A stretch of DNA of 64,000 nt from Zunongwangia sp. HGR-M22 (GTDB lineage Bacteria; Bacteroidota; Bacteroidia; Flavobacteriales; Flavobacteriaceae): contig NZ_CP115159.1 in NCBI RefSeq assembly GCF_027594425.1, positions 2,875,001 through 2,939,000 of the forward strand, written 5' to 3'. Made by a program: the position numbers and the translations under genes. Under the pieces are notes generated by a model. It was given only the letters and a program-made list of their open reading frames with translations, was not told the DNA's origin and made no database searches. This document shows, one piece after another, positions 2,840 to 27,772 of the stretch (the stretch's first letter is position 1; each line of letters starts with the position of its first letter).

Positions 2840-4276
2840 CTATTCCATTTTTGAACCGTTTATAGTTACATTTTCGTAATTAACAGGATCAGCATCGGTA
2901 ATTTTTGTAGCAGTTTCTGCTCCTTTAATGGTTATATTCTTCAGATTAATATTCGAAATTTTTGAACCTTCGCGTCCAATAATTAAGATTCCATATTTTC
3001 CTGCATTCTCAACATTAATATCTTCTAGGTATATATTAGAAATATTTGGAAAGAATTCACCCTCCTGATTATCGTAGATTCCATAATGAAGATTCACTTT
3101 TAGCATTGCTTCTTTCACCTGTCCTACTTCAATATTTTTAACATAAACTCCATCTACAAAACCACCTCTTAAAGTATTTGTCTTTATACGAATCGCACGA
3201 TCTAAATTGGGACTGTCCATTATACAATTTCGAACATAAACATTGCGAACACCAGCAGAAATTTCACTTCCCATAACAACACCTCCATGGCCATCCTTCA
3301 TATTACAGTCTTCAACAACAATATTTTCACTAGGAATAGCGACACGCCTTCCATCATTATTTCGGCCAGATTTAATAGCTATACAATCATCACCTGTATT
3401 AAATAAACAATTTTTAATATGTACATTTTTGGCATACTCCGGATCACATCCATCGTTATTAGGGCCATGACTATTTACCGTTACGCCATCTACAGTAACG
3501 TTGTTCGATTTAATTGGATGAATTACCCAAAAAGGGGCGTTAGTAAAAGTTACATCCTTAACTAGAACGTTTTCGCAACCGAAGGGCTGAAAAAAAGTTG
3601 GACGCAGTTGGTGTCCTTTTCCAAACTTTCGTTCTGAAACTGGTGTATTTTCTTCATTCATTCTTCTTAGTGCGGGTAGATTGTGATCTTGCTTTTGGTG
3701 TGCTTCACCTTCCTTATGTCCATAACGCTCTGCACCAGACCATGGCCACCAATTATCATTATCGGCTTGACCGTTAAACGTTCCCTTTCCGGTAACAGCA
3801 ATATTTTCCTGTTCGAAAGCATAGATTAAAGGAGAATAATTCATTAATTCTACACCTTCATACGAGGTATGTACTGCCGGAAGATAATCGTTTGCATCTT
3901 TACTAAACAGAACCTCTGCTCCTTCACTTAAATGTAAATTTACATTACTTTTTAGATGAATGGGACCTGTGAGATATTTTCCCTCGGGAACGATAACTTT
4001 ACCTCCTCCTGCTTCATTACAAGCTGCAATCGCTTTTTTAAATGCTTCTGAATTATTAGTTGTACCATCTGCAACCGCTCCATATTCCGTAATATCAAAC
4101 AATTGATCTTGAAACTGAGGTACTATAATATCTGCGATAATTTTATCTGCTTTTTTCCAAACATCAGATTCTGATATTTCGTTTTTAATATCCTCTTTTT
4201 TCTTTTTTTTATCGGTATTGGTTTTACAGGCCATAAAAGCCGTAATAATCGTAAAAACTAAAAGCAGTTTTTTCAT
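2840..4276 (-). CDS. GH28 polygalacturonase, lipoprotein
   Basis: Family 28 glycoside hydrolase cleaving alpha-1,4 galacturonan. The ATG at 4276 gives a lipoprotein signal (MKKLLLVFTIITAFMAC); an upstream in-frame GTG lies inside the operator and is not a likely start. GH28 motifs are present in order: NDGCDP near residue 275, TGDDC near 295, GHGG near 328 and RIKT near 362, which carry the catalytic aspartates and the substrate-binding His, Arg and Lys. The N-terminal FDITEYGAVADGTTNNSEAF is the usual opening of the right-handed beta-helix. The lysine-rich stretch after the lipid Cys suggests surface or periplasmic anchoring. A LacI-type operator lies 22 bp upstream, so it has its own promoter although it follows the pectate lyase gene. 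Exo versus endo mode cannot be read from sequence. Confidence 0.93.
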   Translation of the reverse strand: MKKLLLVFTIITAFMACKTNTDKKKKKEDIKNEISESDVWKKADKIIADIIVPQFQDQLFDITEYGAVADGTTNNSEAFKKAIAACNEAGGGKVIVPEGKYLTGPIHLKSNVNLHLSEGAEVLFSKDANDYLPAVHTSYEGVELMNYSPLIYAFEQENIAVTGKGTFNGQADNDNWWPWSGAERYGHKEGEAHQKQDHNLPALRRMNEENTPVSERKFGKGHQLRPTFFQPFGCENVLVKDVTFTNAPFWVIHPIKSNNVTVDGVTVNSHGPNNDGCDPEYAKNVHIKNCLFNTGDDCIAIKSGRNNDGRRVAIPSENIVVEDCNMKDGHGGVVMGSEISAGVRNVYVRNCIMDSPNLDRAIRIKTNTLRGGFVDGVYVKNIEVGQVKEAMLKVNLHYGIYDNQEGEFFPNISNIYLEDINVENAGKYGILIIGREGSKISNINLKNITIKGAETATKITDADPVNYENVTINGSKME

Positions 4277-4297
4277 ATAATTATCTTTATTATGTTT

Positions 4298-4311
4298 TGT
4301 AATCGATTGCA
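4298..4311. promoter_or_regulatory. LacI-type operator upstream of the GH28 gene
   Basis: TGTAATCGATTGCA is identical to the site before susC at 13,603-13,616 and is the reverse complement of the site before kduI at 25,704-25,717. On the gene strand it directly follows a -7-like box (TATTTTAG, 4312-4319), so a bound repressor would cover the transcription start. The regulator is inferred to be the LacI protein at 13,815. Confidence 0.8.
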
Positions 4312-4433
4312 CTAAAATATAAAACCTTTAGCAATTAACATAATTTATAGTCTTAAAACTAAGAAAAACTAAAAATCATAGCTAACGAAATGTGGTATTA
4401 ATATTATTAAGTTTAATTTATTGCAAAATTAAA

Positions 4434-6647
4434 TTAGAAATCAATAATATTAGAAATCGAAAATTTAGAAACTTCCTCTTTGGACAATTTTCTCGCCCAT
4501 TTTACTCGGTCGCCATCGGCTCCAGGACCTTGAGAGTTAAATTCCGCATAAAATGCAGTTTTTTCAGCATTTGGCTTATCCCAATTATGCCAACCTTCAT
4601 CTTTAATATGTGCTCCCAAATTGCAATTTATCAAAATGGTCTGCGCATAATCTCGCCAAGGTCTACCTAGGTATACAGTATCTTCATCTACACTACCAGT
4701 AAAATCACATTCAATAAAAATCATACCGAATTTAGATTCTTTTTTAGTTGAAGCCGCCGTTACATATCCTTTAGACTTACTGAAGATTTCACAATTTTCG
4801 AAAACAGCTGATGACCAACCAAATATAAAATCAACCGTACCTTCTATATAACAGTCCTTATAGTATTGTGTATTGTTTTCACCATGCAAATACAATGTAT
4901 CCTGATTTCCTAAGAAAGAGCAATTTTCAAATTTTGCATGATCTCCGTCAACTCTAACAGCTACAGCTTGACCTATTTGCCCTGCATTATTCTGAAAAGT
5001 AAGATTCTTAGCGGTGAAAGAGTCTCCGAATATAAAAAATGAAGAAGAACCTGTTGTTCCCAATTCTTCCCCAAAATCATTTACTTTAGTTGCATAATCA
5101 TCGTAAGTAATTATAGTTTTATCTTGATCTTCGCCTATAAAAGTAATATTTGTTTTAGTGGATGGTAAAACTAATTTTTCTTTATAAATCCCATTTTTGA
5201 TAAAAACTCGAGTTTCTTTTTTTCTGAAGTTTGGTAAATGATTAATCAAATCTGTAAGTGTACTAAAATCACCTGAACCATCTTTTGCAACCAAAAAGTC
5301 ATAACTTTTAATTTCATCTGAATTGTTTTCTTCCACCAGACTATTCATATATACTTCAATATTCGTATATTCTTTACTCAGGTCGTATGCATTAGCATCG
5401 TTTGAATTTAGATTCAAATTGTATTTTTTTTCCCAAACATCCGGCATTCCATCGTCATCCAGATCTTCTAATTTTTTTCCTTTTCTCAAAACGGGCCATC
5501 CTCCTACGGTTTCCTGAGAATCAATTATTCCATTCTTAAAAGTTGTTTCTCCTGCTCTTACCTCTGCAACCAGTCGCTTATCCACTTCATCCCGTGCATA
5601 GCTAGAACCTGCATATCTTAAAACAGAATTGTAAGCTTCTAAAGCAGATTGAGTTTTTATATTATCGTTTATGGAAAATTCCGTTTCACTTTTAGCCGCT
5701 AAAGGATCTTCGCATTGGATTCCTCCATCCCAATTATTCTTAGTTATTTCTGGGAAATTGTACATATAATTTCCTTCAACATAAAATTTACCGTAAGGAA
5801 GAGATGGTGCTGCAATGCGATCTTTTTTAGAAGAAGTGGTTGCTGGACCCGACTTAAAATAGTTATTTACTATATTGTAAGAACCTTTTTCTCCACCGTA
5901 AATATTATTATCCCCCCAATTAAAGATCACATTATTTCTGAAATCTACTAACTCATCTGGTGTATTTGGTACACTTTTAGACCCTCCAAATCGTGGATTT
6001 CTACTATTGTTACTCATAATTAAATTGTGATGGAAACTTGCTTTTTCACCTCCCCATATTCCGCCATATCCATGAGCTCCTTTATGATGAACTGATCTAT
6101 TTAGAGCTTCTGAAATTATACACCATTGCATGGTAAAATTCTTATTCCAGTAAAAGGATACGTTCTCATCTGTAGCCCAACTCATTGAACAGTGATCAAT
6201 GATAACATTTTTTTGACCTCGCCCCCCTAAGGCATCATCTTCAACTTCATTTTCATCTCCCATTCTAAAACGCACATAACGTATTATAACATTTTCTGCT
6301 TTAATCTTCATAGGAAATCCTTTTAAGGTTATACCCCCACCTGGCGCTGTTTGTCCCGCAATAGTTAAATTGCCATGATTAATGTCTAAAGACGATTTTA
6401 AATCAATCGTTCCTGCTACTTCAAAAACAATAATTCTAGGATCATGTTTTAAAATTCCTTTACGCAAACTTCCTTCTCCATCATCATTCAAATTGGTTAC
6501 TTTATAAACTATACCTCCTCTTCCTCCAGAGGTATATCTACCAAATCCTTCTGCAGTAGGAAAAGACAAGGTTTGTGAATTAGCGAACTGAATTACGCAT
6601 AATACACAAAAAAGCGAGAAAATTGATTTTTTAAGTACTTTCGACAT
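4434..6647 (-). CDS. Secreted two-domain pectate lyase (PL1)-pectin methylesterase (CE8)
   Basis: One 737-residue protein joins two pectin-active enzymes. After a signal peptide (to about residue 24), residues 25-400 are a PL1-like pectate lyase (FPTAEGFGRYTSGGRGG, IRYVRFRMGDE, DHCSMSWATDENVSFY, and the EGNYMYN turn typical of bacterial PL1). A short DLDDDGMPDVWE calcium-loop linker follows. From about residue 452 (FLVAKDGSGDFSTLTD) to the end is a CE8 pectinesterase with GNQDTLYLHG near 580, DFIFGW near 605 and LGRPWRDY near 659, which hold the two catalytic Asp and the substrate Arg. The pairing makes sense because CE8 removes methyl groups that block pectate lyases. It follows the beta-helix lipoprotein gene after a 92-bp gap with a hairpin. 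There is no obvious type IX sorting domain. Confidence 0.93.
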   Translation of the reverse strand: MSKVLKKSIFSLFCVLCVIQFANSQTLSFPTAEGFGRYTSGGRGGIVYKVTNLNDDGEGSLRKGILKHDPRIIVFEVAGTIDLKSSLDINHGNLTIAGQTAPGGGITLKGFPMKIKAENVIIRYVRFRMGDENEVEDDALGGRGQKNVIIDHCSMSWATDENVSFYWNKNFTMQWCIISEALNRSVHHKGAHGYGGIWGGEKASFHHNLIMSNNSRNPRFGGSKSVPNTPDELVDFRNNVIFNWGDNNIYGGEKGSYNIVNNYFKSGPATTSSKKDRIAAPSLPYGKFYVEGNYMYNFPEITKNNWDGGIQCEDPLAAKSETEFSINDNIKTQSALEAYNSVLRYAGSSYARDEVDKRLVAEVRAGETTFKNGIIDSQETVGGWPVLRKGKKLEDLDDDGMPDVWEKKYNLNLNSNDANAYDLSKEYTNIEVYMNSLVEENNSDEIKSYDFLVAKDGSGDFSTLTDLINHLPNFRKKETRVFIKNGIYKEKLVLPSTKTNITFIGEDQDKTIITYDDYATKVNDFGEELGTTGSSSFFIFGDSFTAKNLTFQNNAGQIGQAVAVRVDGDHAKFENCSFLGNQDTLYLHGENNTQYYKDCYIEGTVDFIFGWSSAVFENCEIFSKSKGYVTAASTKKESKFGMIFIECDFTGSVDEDTVYLGRPWRDYAQTILINCNLGAHIKDEGWHNWDKPNAEKTAFYAEFNSQGPGADGDRVKWARKLSKEEVSKFSISNIIDF

Positions 6648-6739: not shown

Positions 6740-8449
6740 TTAATACCACCATCTGGGATCGCCAATAGGACCTCCGCTAGAAGATGCCGTTTGTAAAGCA
6801 GAACCGCTTGGCAATGTGAAATTGGTTGTTTGGTTATCCCAATCTAATTCAATTTCGAAATTATTGTTAATGGCATTTGTAGCTACCTCTGGGAAGGTAA
6901 TTGGCTGAGCATCATCTCCACCAGTAGTTAAATTATAAAGGTTATTGTAACTCATAATTATAGAACTATTTTGCCCATTTAATCTGTACAGATCGGTACT
7001 ACCTAATTCTCCGTCAACTCTTGGAATGTTTGCAATAATACTATTCTGAACGGTAAGATTAACGTCTACAGTGTTTGCATCGATTAGCGTATAGCTTTGT
7101 GCATACCCAATACTATTAATAGTACAGTTATCTATAGTGATATTAGGCGTTTGAGCTGGTGCCGGATCTGAAAAGTTTGCTCTATACCTCATAAACAGAT
7201 CACTAATTTCATAGAAAGTTGAGTTTTTTAGAGAAACATTTTCGAAAATTAGTTCTTCCAAATGTAAAAACGCGTAATTAGAGATGCTAAAATCATGGAA
7301 GATGGAATAATTGATTGAAAAAGATTCCATTGTATAACCTCCAGTTGGCCCTCTATTAGCTCTAAAAGCACTGGTCCCTACGCCATAAACTTCGCAGTTT
7401 TCTATACTTACATTTGCAAAATCTGCTGGTTCACCACCAGTACTTGTTAGATTGATCAGGTAATTTGCTCCTATGGTAGCTCCATCTAATTCAAGATTTT
7501 TTAGCGTAATACCTGCTCCGGTATCATTCAGTTGAAATTCCTTAAATGATATTTTCGTATCAGATGGATTATTGGTAGTTCCCTGAAGAGTAATAGATTT
7601 TCCATCTAATAAGAAATTCTCTGTCGCTTCGTAATTACCAGGATTTAAACCTATAACCGCTCCATCTTCTGCAGAATTTACAATGGTTACAAGGTCTTCT
7701 CCTTCTGACACCATAATCGTGAATTCAGTAATTGTCTTTGTTTTAAAGGAACCATAACCTACACTGGTATTTCCGCTATACAAATCTACGTTATACCTAG
7801 TATCGGGCTTTAAATCTGTTATCGTTTTGGATCCTTCAGCAGCTTCAGTAGAAGAGATATCGTACGATATAGGATCTCCAATCAAGACAGCATCTTCATC
7901 TTCTTCCTGAGTATACTCCTGTACTTGGATTGTGGTAACACCTTCAGTAACATTCCACTTTATAACCGCTGTTGTAGCATTTACGTTAGGATCATAAACT
8001 TTTTGTAAAAATTGAGTTCCTACAATTCTAAAACTTGTACTTGTAGACCAGTTAGAAGCCAAATCATCAGTTTCTGCATTAGTTTTAACGCGAACAAAAT
8101 ATTTTTGACGAACGGAAACTTCATCACTATAAAATACAACGCCCGTAGAATCTGTTTCTTTGGTGAGAATAATATCTTCAGAATTTTCAAAAAGAGAGTC
8201 TTCAGAAACTTGTGCTGTATATGTTTCATCTACTTCGCTCGTAAATAAAGCAGCGTCCCAGCTAATCTCAGAACTATTTTCCAAATTGGATACGCTAAGT
8301 GATAAAGGCGTAAACATTTTCATTTCTCCAGTAGGATCATCGAACATTTCGTCTTCACAGGAAACAAATAATGCGCCCAGTGCTAAAAATACTCCTAAAC
8401 CTGTGGCTTTAGGGAGTATATTTTTAAATGTATAGTTTTTAGTATCCAT
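6740..8449 (-). CDS. Surface lipoprotein with FnIII-like modules and a beta-helix (DUF4957/DUF5123-like), putative pectin-binding
   Basis: 569-residue lipoprotein (signal peptide ending LGALFVSCEDEMF). The N-terminal third contains two beta-sandwich modules of fibronectin III type (SEISWDAALF..., TTAVIKWNVTEG...DLKPDTRYNVDLYSG). The rest is a right-handed beta-helix with repeated N/S-rich rungs (FANVSIENCEVYGVG, ITIDNCTINSIGY, NLTVQNSIIANI), closing with IGDPRWWY as in the DUF5123 family. No GH28, PL1 or CE8 catalytic motif is visible, so a binding role is more likely than lysis. It occupies the SusE/F position after susD and its start overlaps the susD end by 11 bp, suggesting translational coupling and surface display with the SusCD complex. 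The domain family names are from memory. Confidence 0.8.
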   Translation of the reverse strand: MDTKNYTFKNILPKATGLGVFLALGALFVSCEDEMFDDPTGEMKMFTPLSLSVSNLENSSEISWDAALFTSEVDETYTAQVSEDSLFENSEDIILTKETDSTGVVFYSDEVSVRQKYFVRVKTNAETDDLASNWSTSTSFRIVGTQFLQKVYDPNVNATTAVIKWNVTEGVTTIQVQEYTQEEDEDAVLIGDPISYDISSTEAAEGSKTITDLKPDTRYNVDLYSGNTSVGYGSFKTKTITEFTIMVSEGEDLVTIVNSAEDGAVIGLNPGNYEATENFLLDGKSITLQGTTNNPSDTKISFKEFQLNDTGAGITLKNLELDGATIGANYLINLTSTGGEPADFANVSIENCEVYGVGTSAFRANRGPTGGYTMESFSINYSIFHDFSISNYAFLHLEELIFENVSLKNSTFYEISDLFMRYRANFSDPAPAQTPNITIDNCTINSIGYAQSYTLIDANTVDVNLTVQNSIIANIPRVDGELGSTDLYRLNGQNSSIIMSYNNLYNLTTGGDDAQPITFPEVATNAINNNFEIELDWDNQTTNFTLPSGSALQTASSSGGPIGDPRWWY

Positions 8450-10271
8450 AGTCCTGACTTAAATTGTAATTGGTATTAATAATCTCATCATAAAAAGGAA
8501 CAAGTTCTGAATGATTTGGTTGAAAATAGTAAGCAAAACCACTACGTTCTCCGTTTATATAATCATCGTCTATTTGTGCTCTCCAATTCACTTTACTGTA
8601 ACCGGCAGGAACAGATTCTGCCGTTGGTTGATAGAAAACATTTGCCTGGCTTGTACCGTTAAAGAAAATATCTAAATTAGAAACGGTTTGCGATGCTGAA
8701 GTAGAAGGATCGTAATCTGAGGGCTGGTAGTAAATAGCATCAGGTACATTTTTGTATTCTCCAGTACCGTTCATAAAATCAGTCAATTTTTGTCTAGTTT
8801 CAGCTATAGTGCTTTCCAACTCGTTCCATCTAATTAGGTCATAGCGTCTTATACCTTCCCCGCCAAATTCTAATAGTCTTTCATGCATAATCTCTGCGAA
8901 AAATTCTTGATAATTATTAGCATTAACTTCTGGCATTTCTTCAGGATTATCGCTAAAAGCTCTTGCTCTAACCTCAGTTAAAGCTTCGATGGCACCAGAG
9001 GTTGGCCCGTTATTTAATTCATTTTCTGCTTCAGCATACATCAATAATATATCTGCAAATCGCATAATTGGCCATTCTATTCCTAACTGCTGAGTTGAAC
9101 CAGTAATATTAGTCCAAGTTTTTTTGAATTTCCCGTCTGTGAAACTATTTGTAGATGTAAGTTTCGTTTTGTCTTCAGCATCAATCTGAAATATGTTAAT
9201 CGTTACATCTCTTCTTTCATCATTTCTGTCAAACTCATAGAAGTAAGTTGGTAAAGCATTTACTCCGCCGCCGCCTCTTCCGTAAGAAGAAGCTGCATCA
9301 ATTCTCAAACCGTTGTAAAAACCTAGTTTTGTATCTGTCTTAGAATTTGCTCCATAAGCACCAACTTTAAAAATCATTTCGTTAGTGGCATCTTCTCGAT
9401 TTTCGTGTAACGCTCTAAAAATATCTTCGTAATCTGGATTTAGATTATGTTGATTACGATTTTGCATAATTTCGTAGCATTCTTCTCTTGCTATTTGGTA
9501 ATATTTTTCTGGATTTGTGCCCTGAATCATATCTACAGGATCTCTTCTTAGAGAATATCCCGCTCGTGCTAACGCAATTCTAGCTCTTAGGCCTTTTACA
9601 AATGCTTTGGTCACACGTGTTGTAGTAGCAGAAGATTCGCTTCTCCATGGTACATATTCTTTAGCTACCTCTAGATCTGTTAACAAAACCTCGTATATAC
9701 TATCTCTATCTGTTTTAGGTAAATAGATATTTTCATATTGTGACGCAGGTTTATCTTGAAAAGGCACATCTCCCCAATTTCTTATAAGCTCATAATAATA
9801 CTGCGCTCGCAAGGTCATTGCTTCACCTAGGTATTGTCGCATCTCTTGTTGCTCACTTTCTGTTCCGTTATTGAAGATATTAGACTTCGGAACATTGAAA
9901 ATGATAAGATTTGCTCTTTCGATACCACTATATAATTGTAAGAATGGTCTATTTAACTCAGCATTTGAAGAACAAACCTGATACATACTAAACGCCCTTC
10001 TATCATTACAATTATAATCTCCTGAAGTCTCCATATCATCAGCAGACATTGGATAATATAAAGACATTCTGATTCCGTACCCGTTATCACCTACCAAATC
10101 ACTATACACCGCTGTTAAAGCAGAAGAAGTATAAGACAAATCTTCGAAAACCTCAGCTTCGGTAAGATTTGACGGACTTGAAACATCTAGATAATCATCA
10201 CAGGAAGAAAATAATCCTGCAATAACACCTGCTAATGCTATTCCTTTTAATATTTTATAATTCCATTTCAT
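8439..10271 (-). CDS. SusD/RagB-family surface glycan-binding lipoprotein
   Basis: Lipoprotein lid for the SusC transporter at 10,299. The ATG at 10,271 gives the compact lipoprotein signal MKWNYKILKGIALAGVIAGL ending in SSCDDYLDV. An upstream ATG at 10,295 is possible but puts eight extra residues before the signal. Typical SusD features follow: YLDVSSPSNLTEAEVFED, the TPR-like LRAQYYYELIRNWGDVPF, EWPIMRFADILLMYAEAENE, and the C-terminal HERLLEFGGEGIRRYDLIRW. It starts 27 bp after susC and is translationally coupled to the next lipoprotein gene by an 11-bp overlap. The ligand is inferred to be homogalacturonan fragments from the neighbouring enzymes. Confidence 0.95.
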   Translation of the reverse strand: MKWNYKILKGIALAGVIAGLFSSCDDYLDVSSPSNLTEAEVFEDLSYTSSALTAVYSDLVGDNGYGIRMSLYYPMSADDMETSGDYNCNDRRAFSMYQVCSSNAELNRPFLQLYSGIERANLIIFNVPKSNIFNNGTESEQQEMRQYLGEAMTLRAQYYYELIRNWGDVPFQDKPASQYENIYLPKTDRDSIYEVLLTDLEVAKEYVPWRSESSATTTRVTKAFVKGLRARIALARAGYSLRRDPVDMIQGTNPEKYYQIAREECYEIMQNRNQHNLNPDYEDIFRALHENREDATNEMIFKVGAYGANSKTDTKLGFYNGLRIDAASSYGRGGGGVNALPTYFYEFDRNDERRDVTINIFQIDAEDKTKLTSTNSFTDGKFKKTWTNITGSTQQLGIEWPIMRFADILLMYAEAENELNNGPTSGAIEALTEVRARAFSDNPEEMPEVNANNYQEFFAEIMHERLLEFGGEGIRRYDLIRWNELESTIAETRQKLTDFMNGTGEYKNVPDAIYYQPSDYDPSTSASQTVSNLDIFFNGTSQANVFYQPTAESVPAGYSKVNWRAQIDDDYINGERSGFAYYFQPNHSELVPFYDEIINTNYNLSQDYGY

Positions 10272-10298
10272 CGTATCTATATTTAAAATAGCCATTTT

Positions 10299-13200
10299 TT
10301 AAAAAGTAATATTAATTCCGCCAAGGATAAATCTGCTCTGTGGATATGCGGCATAATCAACACCTGGTGTAAGCGGATTAGAATTTCTAGTATTCGCCTC
10401 AGGATCATAACCTGAGTAGCCTGTTAAAGTGAATAAATTATTAACAGTACCGTAAATTCTTATATTGCTAACTACATTAGACTTCTTTAACCAATCTTCG
10501 TTAATTGAATATCCTAAAGTAAGATTACTAAGTCTTAGATAAGATCCATCTTCGATAGCCCAAGAATGAAGAATATAATTCCCACGACTTGGTGTCCATA
10601 ATTGTGCGTTTTGATTTAAACTAGCCAACTCGTCAGGATTTGTAACTCGCTGCCCGCTGTCATCAAAATTTCTCCAAGAATCTGAAACTATTGCAAGTGA
10701 GTTATTATCTGTGTAATTGTAATCTGTTGTAAATTCTATTTTATTGGCATTATACACATCGTTGCCTACAGAGAATGTGAAGAATACGCTCATATCAAAG
10801 TTTTTCCACTGTAACTGTTGGTTAAAACCACCATAAAAATCTGGTTGGGCATTTCCAAGCACTGTTTTATCCTCTTCTCCAATAATACCATCACCACTAA
10901 GGTCTTTCAATTTTAGATCTCCAGGCTTTACCTCTTTAGCTCCAAGCGCTGCCTGGCTACCGTTTGGTACACCTTCTTTTAGTGTGTAAGATTGATCTGT
11001 TTCATTGTAGTTAAAATCATCTAAAGTATACCATCCATCAGTTACGAAACCGTAAAACTGACCTACTGGCTTTCCTACCTCCACTTTAAAATCATTCAGG
11101 TTATTTACCCATCCTGAACGTTCGTAGTAGTATTGAAGTCCCTCTCCGGTAACATCTGTACCTAGTGAGCGAATTTCATTATTGTTGTGAGAAATATTCA
11201 AATTTGCACTCCATTTGAAGTTATCGTTACTTATAATATCCGCTCCAAGGTTTAATTCTACTCCTGTATTTCTTGTACTACCAGTATTTTGATATTGATA
11301 AGAATAACCACTAGTTTGTGGAATATTAGCTAGCAAAAGTAAATCGTCTGTATCTGTAATATAGGCATCTATACTACCGTAAACTCTATTGTTAAATAAA
11401 GTATAGTCTAAACCAATATTCTTAGTTTTTGTGGTTTCCCATTTTGTATTAGGATTTGCAAGAATAGATCCTGCCGCTAAACCTGGAATTATACTACTAG
11501 TATAAGAATATCCATAATCTGAAGAACTTGTGAAAAAGGTAGAATATAAGAATGGACGAATACGGTTATTACCAGAAGTTCCATAGCTTAATCTTAATTT
11601 TAAATCATCTACCCATCTAGATTCTTGTAAAAAGTTTTCTTTACCAATATTCCAGGCGAAAGAGGCCGCTGGGAAAACTGCGTATCGATTATTCGGTGAA
11701 AATACCGTTGAACCATCAGTTCTTATAGTAAAATTAGCAACGTATTTTTGATCAAAAGTATATCCTACTCTTCCGAAAAAAGAAGCCAGACGATCTATAT
11801 TTACTGAAGTAGATGGTGCATCCTGAATTCCTCCTTCTGGTGGTACTGCACTTTGAATATTTGCAAATGCCTGAGAAGGTGTGATATCCTCAGGAAGCCA
11901 TTTAACTTCTAAACTCTGTGATTCCCCATCTGTTTTCACAATTTCCTGTCCTAAAAGGACATTAAATTTATTTTTCTCACCTAGCCTAAAGTCATACTGC
12001 AATGTATTTGAATTGGTCAATTTTCTAGACTGCTGATCACTCATTTGAACGACTGGTAAATCTGCATTTATTCTAGATCTATAAGATCCTCTACCATTAA
12101 AGATATTTTGTTGACGATCGTTTTGAACGTAACCAAAAACAGATTTAAAGGTCAGGTTATCTATAATTTCCCATTGAAAATATCCATTTAAATAAAGGTC
12201 ATCTCGCTGATCTTCTTTGATCTCATTATTTACAAGAACAAGTGGACTAACCAGATTAGTCTGACTGGCATAATCTGCATCAAATTGATTATCAAAAGAA
12301 CTACCAGTAGCGCTCTCGAAAGGCTGAAATCTTACTGCATTACGCAAACGGTTAGCACTATTACTTTGGGTACTACTGGTACCGATTCCTGTAATTAAAC
12401 GCTTACTAAACCTAACATTTGCACCAACCTTTACGGCATCGCTGATCTTATGGTTCATTTTGAAATTGGCAAGTTTTCTTTTATATCCTGAATTAATCAT
12501 AATACCATCTTCCTCCATGGCATTTAAATCGATACTAAAATCAGTTCTCTTGTCACCTCCGGTTACAGATAAGTTGTTATTATAACTAAAGGCACTTCTA
12601 CCAAAAATTTCATCTTGCCAATCTATTGCATCTATATTGCGATAATTCTCTAGATCAGCATAAGTCCCATAACGTCTTTCGAAATTTCTTGCCGCTTCTT
12701 CTCCTCCATAAATATTGTATACTTCATATTGATGTTTTACAAACTGGTAAGGATTCATTACGTCTAACTTATTTGTAATCTCCCTAACACCTGCAAATCC
12801 AGAGTAAGTTACTTTGGTAGGTGCGTTAAAACCGCTTTTAGTAGTAATCAAAATAACACCATTAGCACCTCGTGCTCCATAAATAGCAGTAGAGGCTGCG
12901 TCCTTCAGGACATCTACAGATGCAATTTCTTGCGGAGAAAGTATGGAAAGGGCGTCATCTACCTGAATACCGTCTACAATATAAAGCGGACTATTGTCCT
13001 GAGTAATTGAAGTTCCGCCACGTACTCTAATACTTACCTCAGCTCCCGGAGCTCCTTGAGATTGAGTAACTCTTACTCCTGCTAAACGTCCTTGAATTGC
13101 CTGAGCTGCGGTATTTAATGGAATATCCTTAATCTGTTCAGATTTTACAGTGGCTACTGAAGATGTTAAATCTTCCCTAGAAACCTTAGAATATCCAACA

Positions 13201-13571
13201 ATCACTAATTCCTCTAGCTGATTTGCTTCCTCATTCATTACTACATCGATAGTAGCTTGATCATTGAATTCTTTCGAAATCGTTTGAAATCCAATGTAAG
13301 AAAAAACTAACGTACCTGAAGCCTTGCCTACAACGATTTCGTAATTACCATCAAAATCAGATGCCGTTCCATTACTGGTTCCCTTTTCAAAGATGTTTAC
13401 TCCGGCCAATGGCACGCCATCAGTATCGGTGATTTTACCCGAAATGGTTCTTTGCTGATTTGTTGGATCACCTATAGCATGTATAGATGCATTAATAGTC
13501 CCATAAATAAGAAATACCACACAGCAAATTAAGTATCTCCTAAAATAAGAATGCGTAATTGTTTGTTTCAT
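10299..13571 (-). CDS. SusC/RagA-family TonB-dependent transporter for pectic oligosaccharides
   Basis: Full-length 1090-residue receptor. It has an N-terminal signal and hydrophobic stretch, a carboxypeptidase-regulatory domain (ISGKITDTDGVPLAGVNIFE), a TonB-box-like segment (ELVIVGYSKVSREDLTSSV), a plug domain with the SusC signature VDVLKDAASTAIYGARGANG, and a barrel ending in the canonical aromatic SRFILGGINITF. It is the first gene of the pectin operon (susC, susD, beta-helix lipoprotein, PL1-CE8) and has the LacI-type operator 32 bp upstream. Substrate is inferred from context: oligogalacturonides released at the cell surface. A divergent LacI gene lies 243 bp away. Confidence 0.96.
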   Translation of the reverse strand: MKQTITHSYFRRYLICCVVFLIYGTINASIHAIGDPTNQQRTISGKITDTDGVPLAGVNIFEKGTSNGTASDFDGNYEIVVGKASGTLVFSYIGFQTISKEFNDQATIDVVMNEEANQLEELVIVGYSKVSREDLTSSVATVKSEQIKDIPLNTAAQAIQGRLAGVRVTQSQGAPGAEVSIRVRGGTSITQDNSPLYIVDGIQVDDALSILSPQEIASVDVLKDAASTAIYGARGANGVILITTKSGFNAPTKVTYSGFAGVREITNKLDVMNPYQFVKHQYEVYNIYGGEEAARNFERRYGTYADLENYRNIDAIDWQDEIFGRSAFSYNNNLSVTGGDKRTDFSIDLNAMEEDGIMINSGYKRKLANFKMNHKISDAVKVGANVRFSKRLITGIGTSSTQSNSANRLRNAVRFQPFESATGSSFDNQFDADYASQTNLVSPLVLVNNEIKEDQRDDLYLNGYFQWEIIDNLTFKSVFGYVQNDRQQNIFNGRGSYRSRINADLPVVQMSDQQSRKLTNSNTLQYDFRLGEKNKFNVLLGQEIVKTDGESQSLEVKWLPEDITPSQAFANIQSAVPPEGGIQDAPSTSVNIDRLASFFGRVGYTFDQKYVANFTIRTDGSTVFSPNNRYAVFPAASFAWNIGKENFLQESRWVDDLKLRLSYGTSGNNRIRPFLYSTFFTSSSDYGYSYTSSIIPGLAAGSILANPNTKWETTKTKNIGLDYTLFNNRVYGSIDAYITDTDDLLLLANIPQTSGYSYQYQNTGSTRNTGVELNLGADIISNDNFKWSANLNISHNNNEIRSLGTDVTGEGLQYYYERSGWVNNLNDFKVEVGKPVGQFYGFVTDGWYTLDDFNYNETDQSYTLKEGVPNGSQAALGAKEVKPGDLKLKDLSGDGIIGEEDKTVLGNAQPDFYGGFNQQLQWKNFDMSVFFTFSVGNDVYNANKIEFTTDYNYTDNNSLAIVSDSWRNFDDSGQRVTNPDELASLNQNAQLWTPSRGNYILHSWAIEDGSYLRLSNLTLGYSINEDWLKKSNVVSNIRIYGTVNNLFTLTGYSGYDPEANTRNSNPLTPGVDYAAYPQSRFILGGINITF

Positions 13572-13602: not shown

Positions 13603-13616
13603 TGTAATCGATTGCA
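13603..13616. promoter_or_regulatory. LacI-type operator of susC
   Basis: TGTAATCGATTGCA in the susC-LacI intergenic region, identical to the GH28 site. On the susC strand it directly follows the promoter described at 13,617-13,647. It is 212 bp from the LacI start, so autoregulation is possible but not evident. Confidence 0.85.
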
Positions 13617-13647
13617 CTAAATTATGTAATTATTACCAATAACCAAA
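13617..13647 (-). promoter_or_regulatory. Predicted susC promoter (TTTG-N19-TAATTTAG)
   Basis: Reading the minus strand, TTTG (complement of 13,644-13,647) is separated by 19 nt from TAATTTAG (complement of 13,617-13,624). This is close to the Bacteroidetes TTTG/TAnnTTTG consensus with one mismatch. The LacI operator begins at the very next base. Confidence 0.65.
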
Positions 13648-13814: not shown

Positions 13815-14837
13815 ATGGCAGAAAAAGTTACCATTTATGATATTTCCAAGAAGCTGAAAATTAGCGCAGCAACTGTTTCTAGAGCGTTGAACGACAATCC
13901 TAAAATTAGTCAGAAAACTCGGGAATTAGTTATGGAAACGGCAGCAGCGATGAATTATAAGCAAAATCGACTTGCTCAGGCATTAAAAAGTGGACGTACA
14001 AATAATGTTGGAGTTATTGTTCCTTATATAAACCGTAGTTTTTTCTCTAGCGTTATTCGTGGTATTGAAGAGGAATTATCGCCTCACGGTTATCATGTTA
14101 TCATCTGCCAAACACATGAAGATGTTCGTAATGAGGTTAAACAAATAGATACTTTACTAAACACACAGGTTGATGGAATTTTTATGTCTGTCGCAAAAAC
14201 CACACAGGATACTTCTCATATTAAGAAAGCAATTGCCGAAAACACACCTTTGATCTTTTTTGACCGTAAAAAAGATGTAGAAGGTTTAAGCGCTGTAGTT
14301 ATCGACGATTTTAAAGGCGGCTATTTAGCTACCGAGCATCTTATAAAACAAGGTTGCAAAAAAATAGCTCACTTTTCTGGAGACTTAAATTTAGAAATTT
14401 ACAAGAATAGACACGAAGGTTATCTAAAAGCCCTTAAGGATCATAAAATTACACCATTAAAAAGGTTTAGTGTTCAGGTAAATAGTAAATTAGAATCTGG
14501 TGCTTCAGCAATTAAAGATTTATGGGAATTTGATGAAAAGCCCGATGCTATTTTTTCTTCTAGTGATTATGCGGCTTTAGGTGCCATTCAAGAATTAAAA
14601 GCAAATGGGATAAAAATACCTGAAGAAGTATGTGTGGTTGGTTTCAGTAACGAGCCTTTTACAAAATACATGGAACTACCAATTACCTCTGTAGATCAAA
14701 CCCCACTTGAAATGGGTAAAATTGCAGCTCAGGTTTTCTTAGAACAAACAAAAGAGAGCCAGCCACTTACTACAGAAAAGAAAGTTGTGCTGGCTCCCGA
14801 GCTTTATGTTAGAGATTCTTCTAATAGAAAATTATAA
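13815..14837 (+). CDS. LacI-family transcriptional regulator of the pectin/uronate regulon
   Basis: 340 residues: an N-terminal LacI helix-turn-helix (VTIYDISKKLKISAATVSRALNDNPKISQKTR, residues 4-35 in segments) with hinge helix (NRLAQALKSGRTNNVGVIVP), then a periplasmic-binding-like effector domain (GIFMSVAKTTQ, FFDRKKDVEGLSAVVIDDFKGGYLATEHL, PDAIFSSSDYAALGAIQELK). It is divergent from susC and convergent with the uronate operon. Three near-perfect TGYAATCGATTRCA palindromes with the central CG typical of LacI operators precede susC, GH28 and kduI, making this the obvious cognate repressor. The inducer is probably a pathway intermediate such as 2-keto-3-deoxygluconate or a galacturonide; this is inference. 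Its stop codon abuts that of uxaA, leaving no terminator space. Confidence 0.93.
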   Translation: MAEKVTIYDISKKLKISAATVSRALNDNPKISQKTRELVMETAAAMNYKQNRLAQALKSGRTNNVGVIVPYINRSFFSSVIRGIEEELSPHGYHVIICQTHEDVRNEVKQIDTLLNTQVDGIFMSVAKTTQDTSHIKKAIAENTPLIFFDRKKDVEGLSAVVIDDFKGGYLATEHLIKQGCKKIAHFSGDLNLEIYKNRHEGYLKALKDHKITPLKRFSVQVNSKLESGASAIKDLWEFDEKPDAIFSSSDYAALGAIQELKANGIKIPEEVCVVGFSNEPFTKYMELPITSVDQTPLEMGKIAAQVFLEQTKESQPLTTEKKVVLAPELYVRDSSNRKL

Positions 14838-16476: not shown

Positions 16477-17928
16477 CTAGATTGTAGCTTTTTCAGTAAA
16501 ATTTTTATATCCTTCTTCTATACCTTTAGTTTCAATCAATTCTAAAGCTAAGGCGATGTTGTCTTGTAAACCTGGAACTTTTGTTAAATCGCTGTCCCAA
16601 AATTTTTCATTTTTCAATATTTCGCCGCTAATTTCCTGATAACTGTGCATTTCCCAAACTCGCTTGAGTTCAGCAACCACCGCATCATCATCATTAATTG
16701 GCAAAGTATGATTATTCCATTCGCCTCTATAAAATCTTATTAAGCAAGCAAATGCAAAAGTAAGATGCAAAGGTAATCGATTGCAATCTTTTTGAAAAGC
16801 TAATAAACTAGGTAGTACTCTAACCTTAAATTTTGAAATTGAATTTAAAGCAATACTCGCTAATTGATGCTTAATAAACGGATTTCTAAAACGGTCTAAA
16901 ACTTCTTCAGAAAACGTTTTTAATTCATCCTCTGGCAATGAAAGTGTTGGAATTATTTCTTTAAAAATTGCTTCTTTTACAAAGGCTCCCGTAAATTCAT
17001 GATCTACAGTTTCTTTAACGGTTTCATTTCCGAAGAGCATAGAAAAAGGAACCATCGTGGTATGCGCGCCATTTAAAATTCGAACTTTTCTTGTTCGATA
17101 GGGCTGCATATCTTCTACAACGATTATATTTTCGTCTATTTTATCAAATGGAATTTTGGCTTTCAAAGCTTCTCCTCCTTCGATTACCCAAAGTAAAAAT
17201 ACTTCTGCAGAAACAATTAATTTATCCTCAAACTGAAGTTCACTTTGATACGCATCAATATCAGCTTTAGGATACCCGGGAACAATTCGATCTACTAAGG
17301 TATTATGAAAACTATTACTGTTGTTGATCCAAGCTACAAAATCGGCTTCTAATTTCCATAATTCTGCATATTGAAGTATAATTTTCTTTAGAGTATCGGC
17401 ATTATAATTTATTAATTCACAAGGAATAATGGTTAATCCTTTCGCTGAATCCCCGCCAAAATGCTTAAACCTTCTATACAATAAAGCGGTTAATTTTGCT
17501 GGAAAACTTTTATGTGGTGTTTCTTCCAGAGTATCGCTTTCATCGTAAGCAATACCTGCTTCTGTAGTGTTAGAAATTACGAATTCTAAGGTTTCTTCTT
17601 CCGCTAGTTTTAAATAATCTTCGTAATTTTTATAAGGATTTATTCCTTTCTGAATACAAGAAATTGTTCTTTGCTCCTGAATTTCTTCACCCTGCTTTAC
17701 TCCTTTCATAAACAGGTTGTACAACCCGTCTTGTTCATTAAGCATTTCCACTAATCCGCCTGCTAAAGGCTGAATTACGGCGACACCGGCATTAAAATTG
17801 GCTTCTTTATTTAATTTATCTATTACAAAATCTACAAAGGCTCTCAAAAAGTTTCCTTCGCCAAACTGAACTACCTTTATTGGTAAAGTTGTTGTTAGAT
17901 TTGCATTTTTTCGGTTTAATTTTTCCAT
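16477..17928 (-). CDS. uxaB: Tagaturonate reductase (altronate oxidoreductase)
   Basis: Reduces D-tagaturonate to D-altronate with NADH. 483 residues of the polyol-specific long-chain dehydrogenase family: Rossmann start VVQFGEGNFLRAFVDFVID, mid-protein LTIIPCELINYNADTLKKII, and the family lysine/asparagine segment VRILNGAHTTMVPFSMLFG. The C-terminal helical domain includes RNPFIKHQLASIALNSISKF. It lies between the TRAP permease (14 bp) and uxaA (28 bp). Context with uxaC and uxaA favours tagaturonate over fructuronate, for which a separate SDR is present at 25,777. A near-copy of the LacI operator lies within the coding region at 16,772-16,785. Confidence 0.93.
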   Translation of the reverse strand: MEKLNRKNANLTTTLPIKVVQFGEGNFLRAFVDFVIDKLNKEANFNAGVAVIQPLAGGLVEMLNEQDGLYNLFMKGVKQGEEIQEQRTISCIQKGINPYKNYEDYLKLAEEETLEFVISNTTEAGIAYDESDTLEETPHKSFPAKLTALLYRRFKHFGGDSAKGLTIIPCELINYNADTLKKIILQYAELWKLEADFVAWINNSNSFHNTLVDRIVPGYPKADIDAYQSELQFEDKLIVSAEVFLLWVIEGGEALKAKIPFDKIDENIIVVEDMQPYRTRKVRILNGAHTTMVPFSMLFGNETVKETVDHEFTGAFVKEAIFKEIIPTLSLPEDELKTFSEEVLDRFRNPFIKHQLASIALNSISKFKVRVLPSLLAFQKDCNRLPLHLTFAFACLIRFYRGEWNNHTLPINDDDAVVAELKRVWEMHSYQEISGEILKNEKFWDSDLTKVPGLQDNIALALELIETKGIEEGYKNFTEKATI

Positions 17929-25594: not shown

Positions 25595-25703
25595 AATTTT
25601 GGTTATTTTCTTATTTTATAGAATAAAAGAGCAATTTATTCATAATTAGCGAAAATTGCATCCCGGACTAGCCTGAGAATTATTTGATACTAATTTAGAA
25701 TTA

Positions 25704-25717
25704 TGCAATCGATTACA
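25704..25717. promoter_or_regulatory. LacI-type operator of the kduI operon
   Basis: TGCAATCGATTACA, the reverse complement of the susC and GH28 sites, in the 182-bp gap between kduI and the SDR gene. On the minus strand it immediately follows a -7-like TAATTTG (25,718-25,724), the same arrangement as at the other two promoters. Confidence 0.82.
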
Positions 25718-25776
25718 CAAATTATTTTTCTCTTTTTTTAGTAAATATTTAATATAATCTCAGTTTAGAAATAATA

Positions 25777-26587: not shown

Positions 26588-27772
26588 TTATTTCAATGCG
26601 TTTATAATTCCAAATTCTAATCCGCGTAATTCTGCTAAACCACGTAACCTTCCTATTGCAGAATATCCAGGATAATACGGTTTCCCCTGGTCGTCCATCA
26701 TTTCGTGACCGTGATCTGGTCGCATTGGTAAAAGTCGATCTTTGCCTTTGGAGCATTCATAAAAAGTTTTTACCAAATCGAACATTTTAGCGCTTCCTTC
26801 TAAATGATTGGCTTCATAAAAATGATAAGGTTCTACGCGATTTACCGAGCGTAAATGCACAAAGTGAATACGATCATACCAAGTTTTGATAATTTCGGGA
26901 AGATTATTGTCTTCTGAAGCACCTAGACTTCCACTACAAAATGTGAGTCCGTTATGCTTTGAAGGGACTTTTTCAAAAATAAATTTCAAGTCTTCAGCAT
27001 TGCTCACAATTCTTGGAAGTCCAAAAACCGGCCATGGCGGATCATCGGGATGTACCGCTAAAACCACATCATACTTTTCAGCTACAGGAATAACAGCCTC
27101 CAAAAAATAAATCAGATTATCCTGAAGTTGTTCTCTGGAAATGTTATCGTATTGCGCTAATCCATTTTTCAACTTTTCAATAGTAAAACCATCTTTATCA
27201 CCTGGCAATGCCATTAAAAGACTTTGTTTTAAGACTTTAATTTCTTCATCTGAAAGACTATCGTATTTTTCACGCGCTTTTAGCAAAATATCATCTGAAT
27301 ATGATTTTTCGGCATTTTTACGTTGCAGCATATACACATCGAAAATCACGACATCGATCATTTCATGTAATAATGCCGTGCTTCCGTCTTCTAATTCAAA
27401 CCGAATATTTGTTCTTAGCCAATCCAAAATCGGCATAAAATTGTAACAAATTGTTTTAACGCCACAAGCCGCTAAATTTTTGATACTTTCTTTATAATTT
27501 TCGATTAACTGATCTCTTTCTGGTCGTCCTTGCTTTATAAACTCATGTACAGGCAAACTTTCTACCACATTCCAATGTAGTTTAAAAGAATGTAATCGAT
27601 TGCTCTCTTCGAGCAAATTAATCCGTTCCTGAATCTTTTCCTGTGTCCAAATATCGCCTACAGGAACTTGATGTAATGCCGTAACCACACCATGAGCACC
27701 GGCCTGTTTTATAGTATTTAGCGAGACAGGATCATTGGGACCATACCATCGCCAGCTTTGTTCGAAAATCAT
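26588..27772 (-). CDS. uxuA: Mannonate dehydratase
   Basis: Dehydrates D-mannonate to KDG. 394 residues of the UxuA TIM-barrel family: opening FEQSWRWYGPNDPVSLNTIK, VVTALHQVPVGDIW, KTICYNFMPILDWLRT, LAVHPDDPPWPVFGLPRIV and the C-terminal MRPDHGHEMMDD...GYSAIGRLRGLAELRG with metal-ligand His and Asp. It is the middle gene of GH115-uxuA-SDR (9 and 4 bp gaps), so it handles glucuronate freed from glucuronoxylan. The coding sequence contains a one-mismatch copy of the LacI operator at 27,591-27,604. Confidence 0.95.
   Translation of the reverse strand: MIFEQSWRWYGPNDPVSLNTIKQAGAHGVVTALHQVPVGDIWTQEKIQERINLLEESNRLHSFKLHWNVVESLPVHEFIKQGRPERDQLIENYKESIKNLAACGVKTICYNFMPILDWLRTNIRFELEDGSTALLHEMIDVVIFDVYMLQRKNAEKSYSDDILLKAREKYDSLSDEEIKVLKQSLLMALPGDKDGFTIEKLKNGLAQYDNISREQLQDNLIYFLEAVIPVAEKYDVVLAVHPDDPPWPVFGLPRIVSNAEDLKFIFEKVPSKHNGLTFCSGSLGASEDNNLPEIIKTWYDRIHFVHLRSVNRVEPYHFYEANHLEGSAKMFDLVKTFYECSKGKDRLLPMRPDHGHEMMDDQGKPYYPGYSAIGRLRGLAELRGLEFGIINALK

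Follow-up and report, generated by a model that had tools for sequence, protein, structure and literature searches.

P0001, a 569-residue lipoprotein encoded in a 64,000-nucleotide stretch of Zunongwangia sp. HGR-M22 (Flavobacteriaceae; contig NZ_CP115159.1, positions 2,875,001 to 2,939,000; hereafter the window, to which all coordinates refer), is predicted to bind pectin, probably homogalacturonan, without enzymatic activity, as a surface glycan-binding protein (SGBP); its gene occupies the SusE position of a SusC–SusD locus. We put the probability that it works as proposed here at about 0.74. Gene order, domain make-up, the predicted fold and its relatives, conserved genomic context and subfamily-specific residue ladders were obtained by computation. 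The family of pectin-locus proteins to which it belongs is widespread and uncharacterised, and P0001 is a divergent representative. A surface pectin-binding role had been suggested in a preliminary description of this DNA; that the protein is a pectin-locus SGBP is well supported by gene order and context, and the binding itself we infer. The proposal provides a testable function and an ancestry for DUF4957 and DUF5123, Pfam domains without assigned function that are markers of pectin loci throughout the phylum.

Gene and domain organisation of P0001

The gene (6740..8449, minus strand) begins with ATG and was assigned as a DUF4957/DUF5123 surface glycan-binding lipoprotein from its open reading frame, Pfam matches and an AF2 model. 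It lies directly after susC–susD in a glycan locus, which bears out the SusE/F position described earlier. The 11-bp overlap of its start with susD is real because susD spans 8439..10295 on the same strand, so that positions 8439–8449 are common to both frames. A first-ATG overlap with susD is found in 16 of 80 named relatives, and the translational linkage is therefore recurrent rather than a rule.

A putative lipoprotein signal peptide, recognised from sequence, runs to Cys31 (8357..8449, minus strand), and this lipid-anchor Cys is invariant across 81 aligned proteins. The acidic run EDEMFDD directly after Cys31, when compared with the export signals given in one study (PMC5080379), is suggestive of cell-surface exposure. 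Next come two FnIII-like domains, the first at residues 49–141 (8027..8305, minus strand; PDB sequence match, AF2 model and fold match) and the second at residues 155–236 (7742..7987, minus strand; PDB sequence match and AF2 model). Pfam fn3 (PF00041) reaches 21.5 bits at residues 155–235, under its cut-off of 25, the FnIII tandem of Tie2 among PDB sequences matches residues 59–230 (E 0.0013), and both sequence and fold matches in the PDB speak for an FnIII-like fold. The AF2 model, built with 81 sequences, has a mean pLDDT of 79.6, with beta-sandwich strands at about residues 49–141 and 161–236, a beta-helix between residue 245 and about 505, and a poorly predicted stretch ahead of the C-terminus.

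The remainder is mostly a right-handed parallel beta-helix at residues 241–533 (end approximate; 6851..7729, minus strand), indicated by Pfam, the AF2 model, and fold and profile matches. It holds DUF4957 (residues 271–414) and most of DUF5123 (437–567). In Pfam, DUF4957 (PF16318) scores 52.2 bits against a cut-off of 30.8; DUF5123 (PF17161) scores 32.8 bits with hmmscan, against a cut-off of 35.1, and 36.2 bits in a six-frame search. The protein terminates in a GDPRW motif (6749..6763, minus strand), which also ends 73 of the 80 named relatives. The model of a relative from Bacteroides sp. 519 has a mean pLDDT of 91.2 and a layout identical to that of P0001. A search of P0001 against NCBIfam gave no match at E≤0.1, and SusE/SusF models are absent among the seven Pfam families that match it at E≤1. 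The earlier picture of a lipoprotein combining FnIII and beta-helix is upheld, both domain types being indicated by PDB sequences and the AF2 model and the lipoprotein character by sequence; the FnIII content needs amending from one domain to two, given the Tie2 tandem match and the AF2 strands.

The pectin locus in the window

The SGBP gene is preceded on the minus strand by genes for a SusC/RagA TonB-dependent transporter (10299..13571; ORF and NCBIfam) and a SusD homologue (8439..10295; ORF and Pfam). Directly after it, on the same strand, is a gene for a 737-residue fusion of a PL1 pectate lyase and a CE8 pectin methylesterase (4434..6647); the CE8 part is recognised by Pfam, and the PL1 part is similar to NCBIfam PelZ with a score under the cut-off of that model. 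A GH28 polygalacturonase-type enzyme, assigned by Pfam and an alignment of relatives, is encoded next on the minus strand (mechanical ORF 2840..4312). We rejected the mechanical GTG start (490 residues), as the relatives align with a later ATG at 4276, the likely start, which gives 478 residues. With this start, an operator-like site at 4298–4314 lies ahead of the gene.

That site is one of two exact copies of a 17-bp sequence, TGTAATCGATTGCACTA; the other lies at 13603..13619 (plus strand), between susC and a divergent LacI-family regulator gene (13815..14837, plus strand; Pfam LacI 44.4 bits, cut-off 27). Allowing up to three mismatches, there are six matches to TGTAATCGATTGCACTA at five places, against 0.18 expected, and two of the five places are inside coding sequence. 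We infer that these sites are a LacI-type operator. Sites of the form TGTAATCGATTGCA are spread across the pectin and galacturonate genes (4298–4314, 13603–13619, 16772–16788, 25701–25720 and 27591–27607), and they likely form a LacI-type regulon.

Galacturonate and KDG catabolism genes continue in the window, with Pfam matches for altronate dehydratase, KDPG aldolase, PfkB kinase, UxaC, KduI and UxuA. A DctP-type transporter part is also present downstream, within the genes of the galacturonate route, and a GH115 family gene (27782–30628) lies at the end of this run. The pectin island extends to the left of the window (L161–L163, within G000:C1:2780000-2879999), where there are more SusC/SusD pairs, GH28, PL1 and CE8 genes, as well as a Pel9A-like protein (L162 4998–6233).

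Relationship of the beta-helix to PL6 alginate lyases

Structural comparison of the P0001 model with VIA-align placed the C-terminal helices of two-domain PL6 alginate lyases in all of the top six entries (Z 25.0–27.5). The best match is BcAlyPL6 (7dmk 427–747; Z 27.5, rmsd 2.8 over 293 residues), followed by 5gkq and 5gkd at about 26 (AlyGC, 5gkd 439–727), 8bwk at 25.8, and 7o77 and 7o7t at about 25. After these come RbmB (18.9), an alginate epimerase/lyase (18.6), a rhamnogalacturonan lyase (18.1) and single-domain PL6 enzymes (16–17). With the Bacteroides model, PL6 C-terminal rows score 29.3 and 25.6–26.6, and the next row 20.7. Pectin enzymes rank below the PL6 C-terminal rows, at best 15.8 for pectin methylesterase, 14.5 for GH28 and 12.2 for pectate lyase with the P0001 model, and 19.3 for pectin lyase and 19.0 for Pel9A with the Bacteroides model. 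All these fold lists re-examine the 1000 entries that Foldseek ranked highest.

Profile comparisons point the same way. A profile search of the PDB matched 7dmk at 426–732 (E 4.8e-16), the family profile scores highest on the C-terminal half in all nine PL6-type proteins, and in three of six PL6-type proteins scanned, the C-terminal half scores above the DUF4957 cut-off. In hhalign, run as one-to-one comparisons of chosen subsets (26 PL1, 31 GH28, 26 CE8, 3 PL6 N-terminal, 9 PL6 C-terminal, 101 SGBP helix and 21 c3 sequences, c3 being the subfamily of P0001), the helix of all subfamilies matched the PL6 C-terminal domain at 99.3% (E 6e-21), the N-terminal domain at 88.8% over 111 columns, and PL1, GH28 and CE8 at 2–12.3%; the PL6 C-terminal set includes six rows from ORFs with a cut or mis-set start. 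For c3 alone, the corresponding values were 98.5% (E 1.5e-15), 1.3% and 1.1–4.7%. Based on the fold and profile matches, we conclude that the P0001 helix and the PL6 C-terminal accessory domain very likely share ancestry, whichever of the two is the older. As far as limited literature searches show, the tie between this SGBP family and the PL6 accessory domain has been little noted.

In contrast to P0001, two-domain PL6 lyases such as BcAlyPL6 and AlyGC have a catalytic N-terminal domain; P0001 has instead FnIII-like domains, a lipid anchor and a pectin-locus setting. Chondroitinas_B, matched by six of six scanned PL6-type proteins, has no match in P0001 at E≤1, and neither do PL1, GH28 or CE8 in Pfam. 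The PL6 base motif that we assumed for scanning, read in part off the PL6-type protein L025, in which it is present, occurs neither in P0001 nor in any of 107 relatives, a single one of which carries a looser RHG/RYG motif. This agrees with the earlier statement that no catalytic motif is visible. Fold prediction likewise returned a beta-helix, so the fold class named in the preliminary description, that of pectin enzymes, is right; its specific relative is the PL6 alginate-lyase C-terminal helix rather than PL1, GH28 or CE8. The suggested evolution from a lyase-like helix survives as shared descent with the PL6 accessory domain. Descent from a catalytic pectin lyase is not supported; among pectin-enzyme families, the hhalign comparison covered PL1, GH28 and CE8 and rejected these three as ancestors.

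A family conserved in pectin loci

To gather relatives, named genomes were scanned for two short peptide patterns taken from six sequences of the large subfamily (c1). This gave 112 relatives, of which the best 80 were kept as the named loci; they are biased to c1. They come from Flavobacteriaceae, Cyclobacteriaceae, Bacteroidales families, Pedobacter and others, and P0001 is 21–26% identical to them. Every one of the 81 aligned proteins matches both DUF4957 and DUF5123 at E≤0.001, and 78 match fn3 at this threshold. P0001 resembles these lipoproteins of Bacteroidota pectin loci in domain order, in its place after SusC–SusD and in the C-terminal GDPRW; it differs in the ladder residues described below. 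Within Flavobacteriaceae, 61 of 299 sampled genomes carry a DUF4957 match, there being a single one in the genome of the window. These proteins fall mainly into two size classes, of about 520–575 and about 770–800 residues; all six scanned members of the longer class are of PL6 type, with Chondroitinas_B in the N-terminal part. In the literature searched, where most subscription journals lay outside coverage, DUF4957 and DUF5123 were found only in a gene list, and no title or abstract dealt with a beta-helix pectin SGBP.

SusC, SusD and the SGBP are contiguous on one strand in 77 of the 80 named loci. The exceptions are L142, in which SusC and SusD are split ORFs, L157, with 262 bp between SusC and SusD, and L160, whose contig begins before SusC. 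The split ORFs beside the SGBP gene in L142 (1–3629, Bacteroides reticulotermitis) perhaps reflect decay or sequencing error. Neighbours called with phmmer at 100 bits or more include PL1, GH28 or CE8 in 68 of the 80 fetched stretches, or 72 when uronate-catabolism genes are included. PL9-like or pectinesterase genes occur in three more (L117, L124 and L126), bringing the total to 75. No pectin or uronate gene was found in the remaining five (L113, L115, L121, L146 and L087, the last at a contig end), for which nine further genes were scanned. GH28 or CE8 alone occurs in 59 of 80 loci, compared with 5 of 33 SusD hits having either within 10 kb in the window's own genome, a count that serves as a rough yardstick.

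The other subfamilies share this setting. In family f4, which is probably Chitinophagaceae, all 20 c3 loci read have PL1, GH28 or CE8, and SusC–SusD adjoins the SGBP in 19. All seven c2 loci have SusC, SusD and PL1. In f4, some SGBP genes of the c3 or a related type have very large PL1-containing ORFs, of about 1900–2500 residues, in their vicinity (L248 3–5822, cut; L251 491–8002; L211 12265–18678). Open frames of about 1400–2700 residues with several DUF5123 matches each occur in genomes of other Bacteroidota families (G361, G630, G347 and G452). In L213 (7822–12657), a DUF5123 protein lies upstream of a SusC that resembles the SusC of the window only weakly, in a gene order unlike the other loci.

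Subfamilies and conserved residue ladders

In a tree of 64 sequences (27 of the 80 named rows, taken as every third, and 37 others), c1, the type of the 80 loci, c2 and c3 separate, each with starred support, and P0001 lies within c3 at 99/98. Near-invariant charged, Tyr or Trp residues in the large subfamily occupy 7 of 30 positions on one sheet of the helix; the counts for the other sheets are 0 of 42 and 1 of 24. Sheets were assigned by us from DSSP strands and spacing, without coordinates. In P0001 numbering, the c1 ladder on this sheet comprises D393, D396, R398, D418, R421, D423 and R457 (0.95–1.00 conserved). On the same sheet, c3 has Y330, N333, R363, Y392, D457 and R489 (0.80–0.95), with Y392 bordering its strand, and c2 has Y330, N333, R363, Y392, D398 and R457 (0.86–1.00). 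P0001 has all six c3 ladder residues and one of the seven of c1 (R421). That each subfamily carries its ladder on one sheet is the main reason to think that the subfamilies bind. Judged from sequences and the model, they may read different ligands through their differing ladders. With such conserved differences, ligand specificity becomes a direct question for mutagenesis.

Proposed function and alternatives

We propose that P0001 would be exported as an outer-membrane lipoprotein facing outwards, probably from one operon with SusC and SusD under the divergent LacI-type regulator. The two FnIII-like domains would keep the beta-helix clear of the SusC/SusD transporter, and the helix would bind pectin, most likely homogalacturonan, along the parallel sheet with the conserved polar and charged ladder (in c3, the six residues listed above). 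P0001 could then pass chains to the PL1–CE8 enzyme and to SusCD. SusE and SusF, the starch-binding lipoproteins, have the same genetic position and the job envisaged for P0001; they differ from it in that P0001 has no such Pfam model and its putative binding domain is a beta-helix. A levan SGBP has two Ig-like domains and a C-terminal binding domain (PMC7618045), a layout that the predicted model of P0001 resembles, with the helix as the candidate binding domain. In Bacteroides thetaiotaomicron, according to a review (PMC8002723), homogalacturonan is bound by the SGBP BT4112, which goes with BT4114/BT4113 as its SusC/SusD pair; its likeness to P0001 would be one of role in a homogalacturonan locus.

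The homogalacturonan assignment could be wrong if the ligand is instead RG-I, RG-II, acetylated pectin or an alginate-like uronate and the subfamily ladders read different polymers, which we regard as unlikely. The relatives of the helix are alginate lyases, and the sheet ladders vary among subfamilies. The c3 member of Pedobacter rhizosphaerae adjoins GH95, and the 20 kb that were read there contain none of PL1, GH28 and CE8. BT1026, which we take to be a gene in an RG-II locus, also counts for such a ligand. It is listed as a DUF4957 gene in one publication (PMC10434189). Against this, the window operon has PL1–CE8, GH28 and galacturonate catabolism genes, no alginate lyase was noticed in a by-eye scan of the window ORFs, and PL1, GH28 or CE8 accompany every c3 locus read in f4.

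A role in catalysis or in architecture has also to be considered. According to a review (PMC8618178), the C-terminal domain of BcAlyPL6 helps to fix the substrate and also has weak alginate-lyase activity, which counts against a strictly non-catalytic reading of the helix, and the Arg, Tyr and Asp conserved on one sheet would also fit such activity. We nonetheless see only a small chance that P0001 is a cryptic or weak uronate lyase, given the missing base motif, the single RHG/RYG match, and the link of the c3 profile to the PL6 C-terminal rather than the catalytic domain, even if the catalytic domain does align with the profile of all subfamilies over its 111 columns. Least probable of all, at odds that we consider very long, is a structural partner that shapes the outer-membrane SusCD complex and binds no glycan itself. 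Such a protein would fit with nearest relatives being common to SusC, SusD and the SGBP, and with AlyGC, whose C-terminal domain is described as serving in dimerisation and covering part of the active site (PMC6879350); charged conserved residues clustered on one helix sheet would, we argue, exceed structural need. A pectin SGBP, probably for homogalacturonan, remains our preferred reading of P0001.

History of the cassette

Among 396 other genomes of Flavobacteriaceae, no match to P0001 exceeds 28% identity besides two N-terminal matches of under 100 residues. None was found in five other genomes of the genus, the c2 protein of one of them (G100) being too distant for that search. By comparison, 46 of 294 f4 genomes have matches, and 20 regions from them were read. 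Fourteen rows are 35–38% identical along almost the entire protein, with E values as low as 4e-105, far beyond chance. The c3 relative in Pedobacter rhizosphaerae (L265) is 34% identical to P0001.

The transporter genes show a similar affinity. Best scores to the window proteins are 1269 and 704 bits for SusC and SusD in 23 f4 loci, compared with 812 and 274 in 60 loci that we classed as Flavobacteriaceae, the rest being left out. The trend is reversed for the enzymes, at 564 (f4) versus 696 bits for PL1, 385 versus 480 for CE8 and 251 versus 745 for GH28. P0001 served as the query that yielded the c3 loci, and selection accounts in part for their higher SGBP scores. A whole-genome check of GH28 agrees with these trends. 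Identity is 95% in G680, 81% in G100 and G679 and 44% at best in G681, all of the same genus, with no match at E≤1e-40 in G682. Outside the genus, all 15 Flavobacteriaceae checked reach 57–71%, and the 20 f4 genomes do not exceed 52%. By these sequence comparisons, SusC and SusD follow the lineage of the c3 SGBP, and PL1–CE8 and GH28 are Flavobacteriaceae-like. Base composition gave no sign of recent transfer.

GH28 is directly beside lacI in G680, G100 and G679, the genomes read at this site among five others of the genus, for which reason an insertion of the cassette in the window genome was first suspected. G680 is about 82–99.5% identical in protein through the aligned part of the island and lacks SusC–SusD–SGBP–PL1/CE8; between its GH28 and lacI there is a 34-codon relic of the CE8 end (L266 14283–16257). 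This relic indicates that the cassette was lost in G680, and rules out insertion in the window genome as the simple story. The mosaic locus and the loss in a sister genome show that uptake modules are gained or lost apart from their enzymes. Tentatively, and at somewhat less than even odds, we suggest that the pectin-locus arm and the PL6 accessory helix are one family of uronate-polymer binders whose ladders were rebuilt on a common sheet in each subfamily to suit different forms of pectin, and that the arm and transporter form a module mobile between bacterial families, the enzymes being native. In G100 and G679, the cassette is absent at the GH28–lacI site; G100 has a c2 trio elsewhere in its genome, and G679 has a similarly scoring trio.
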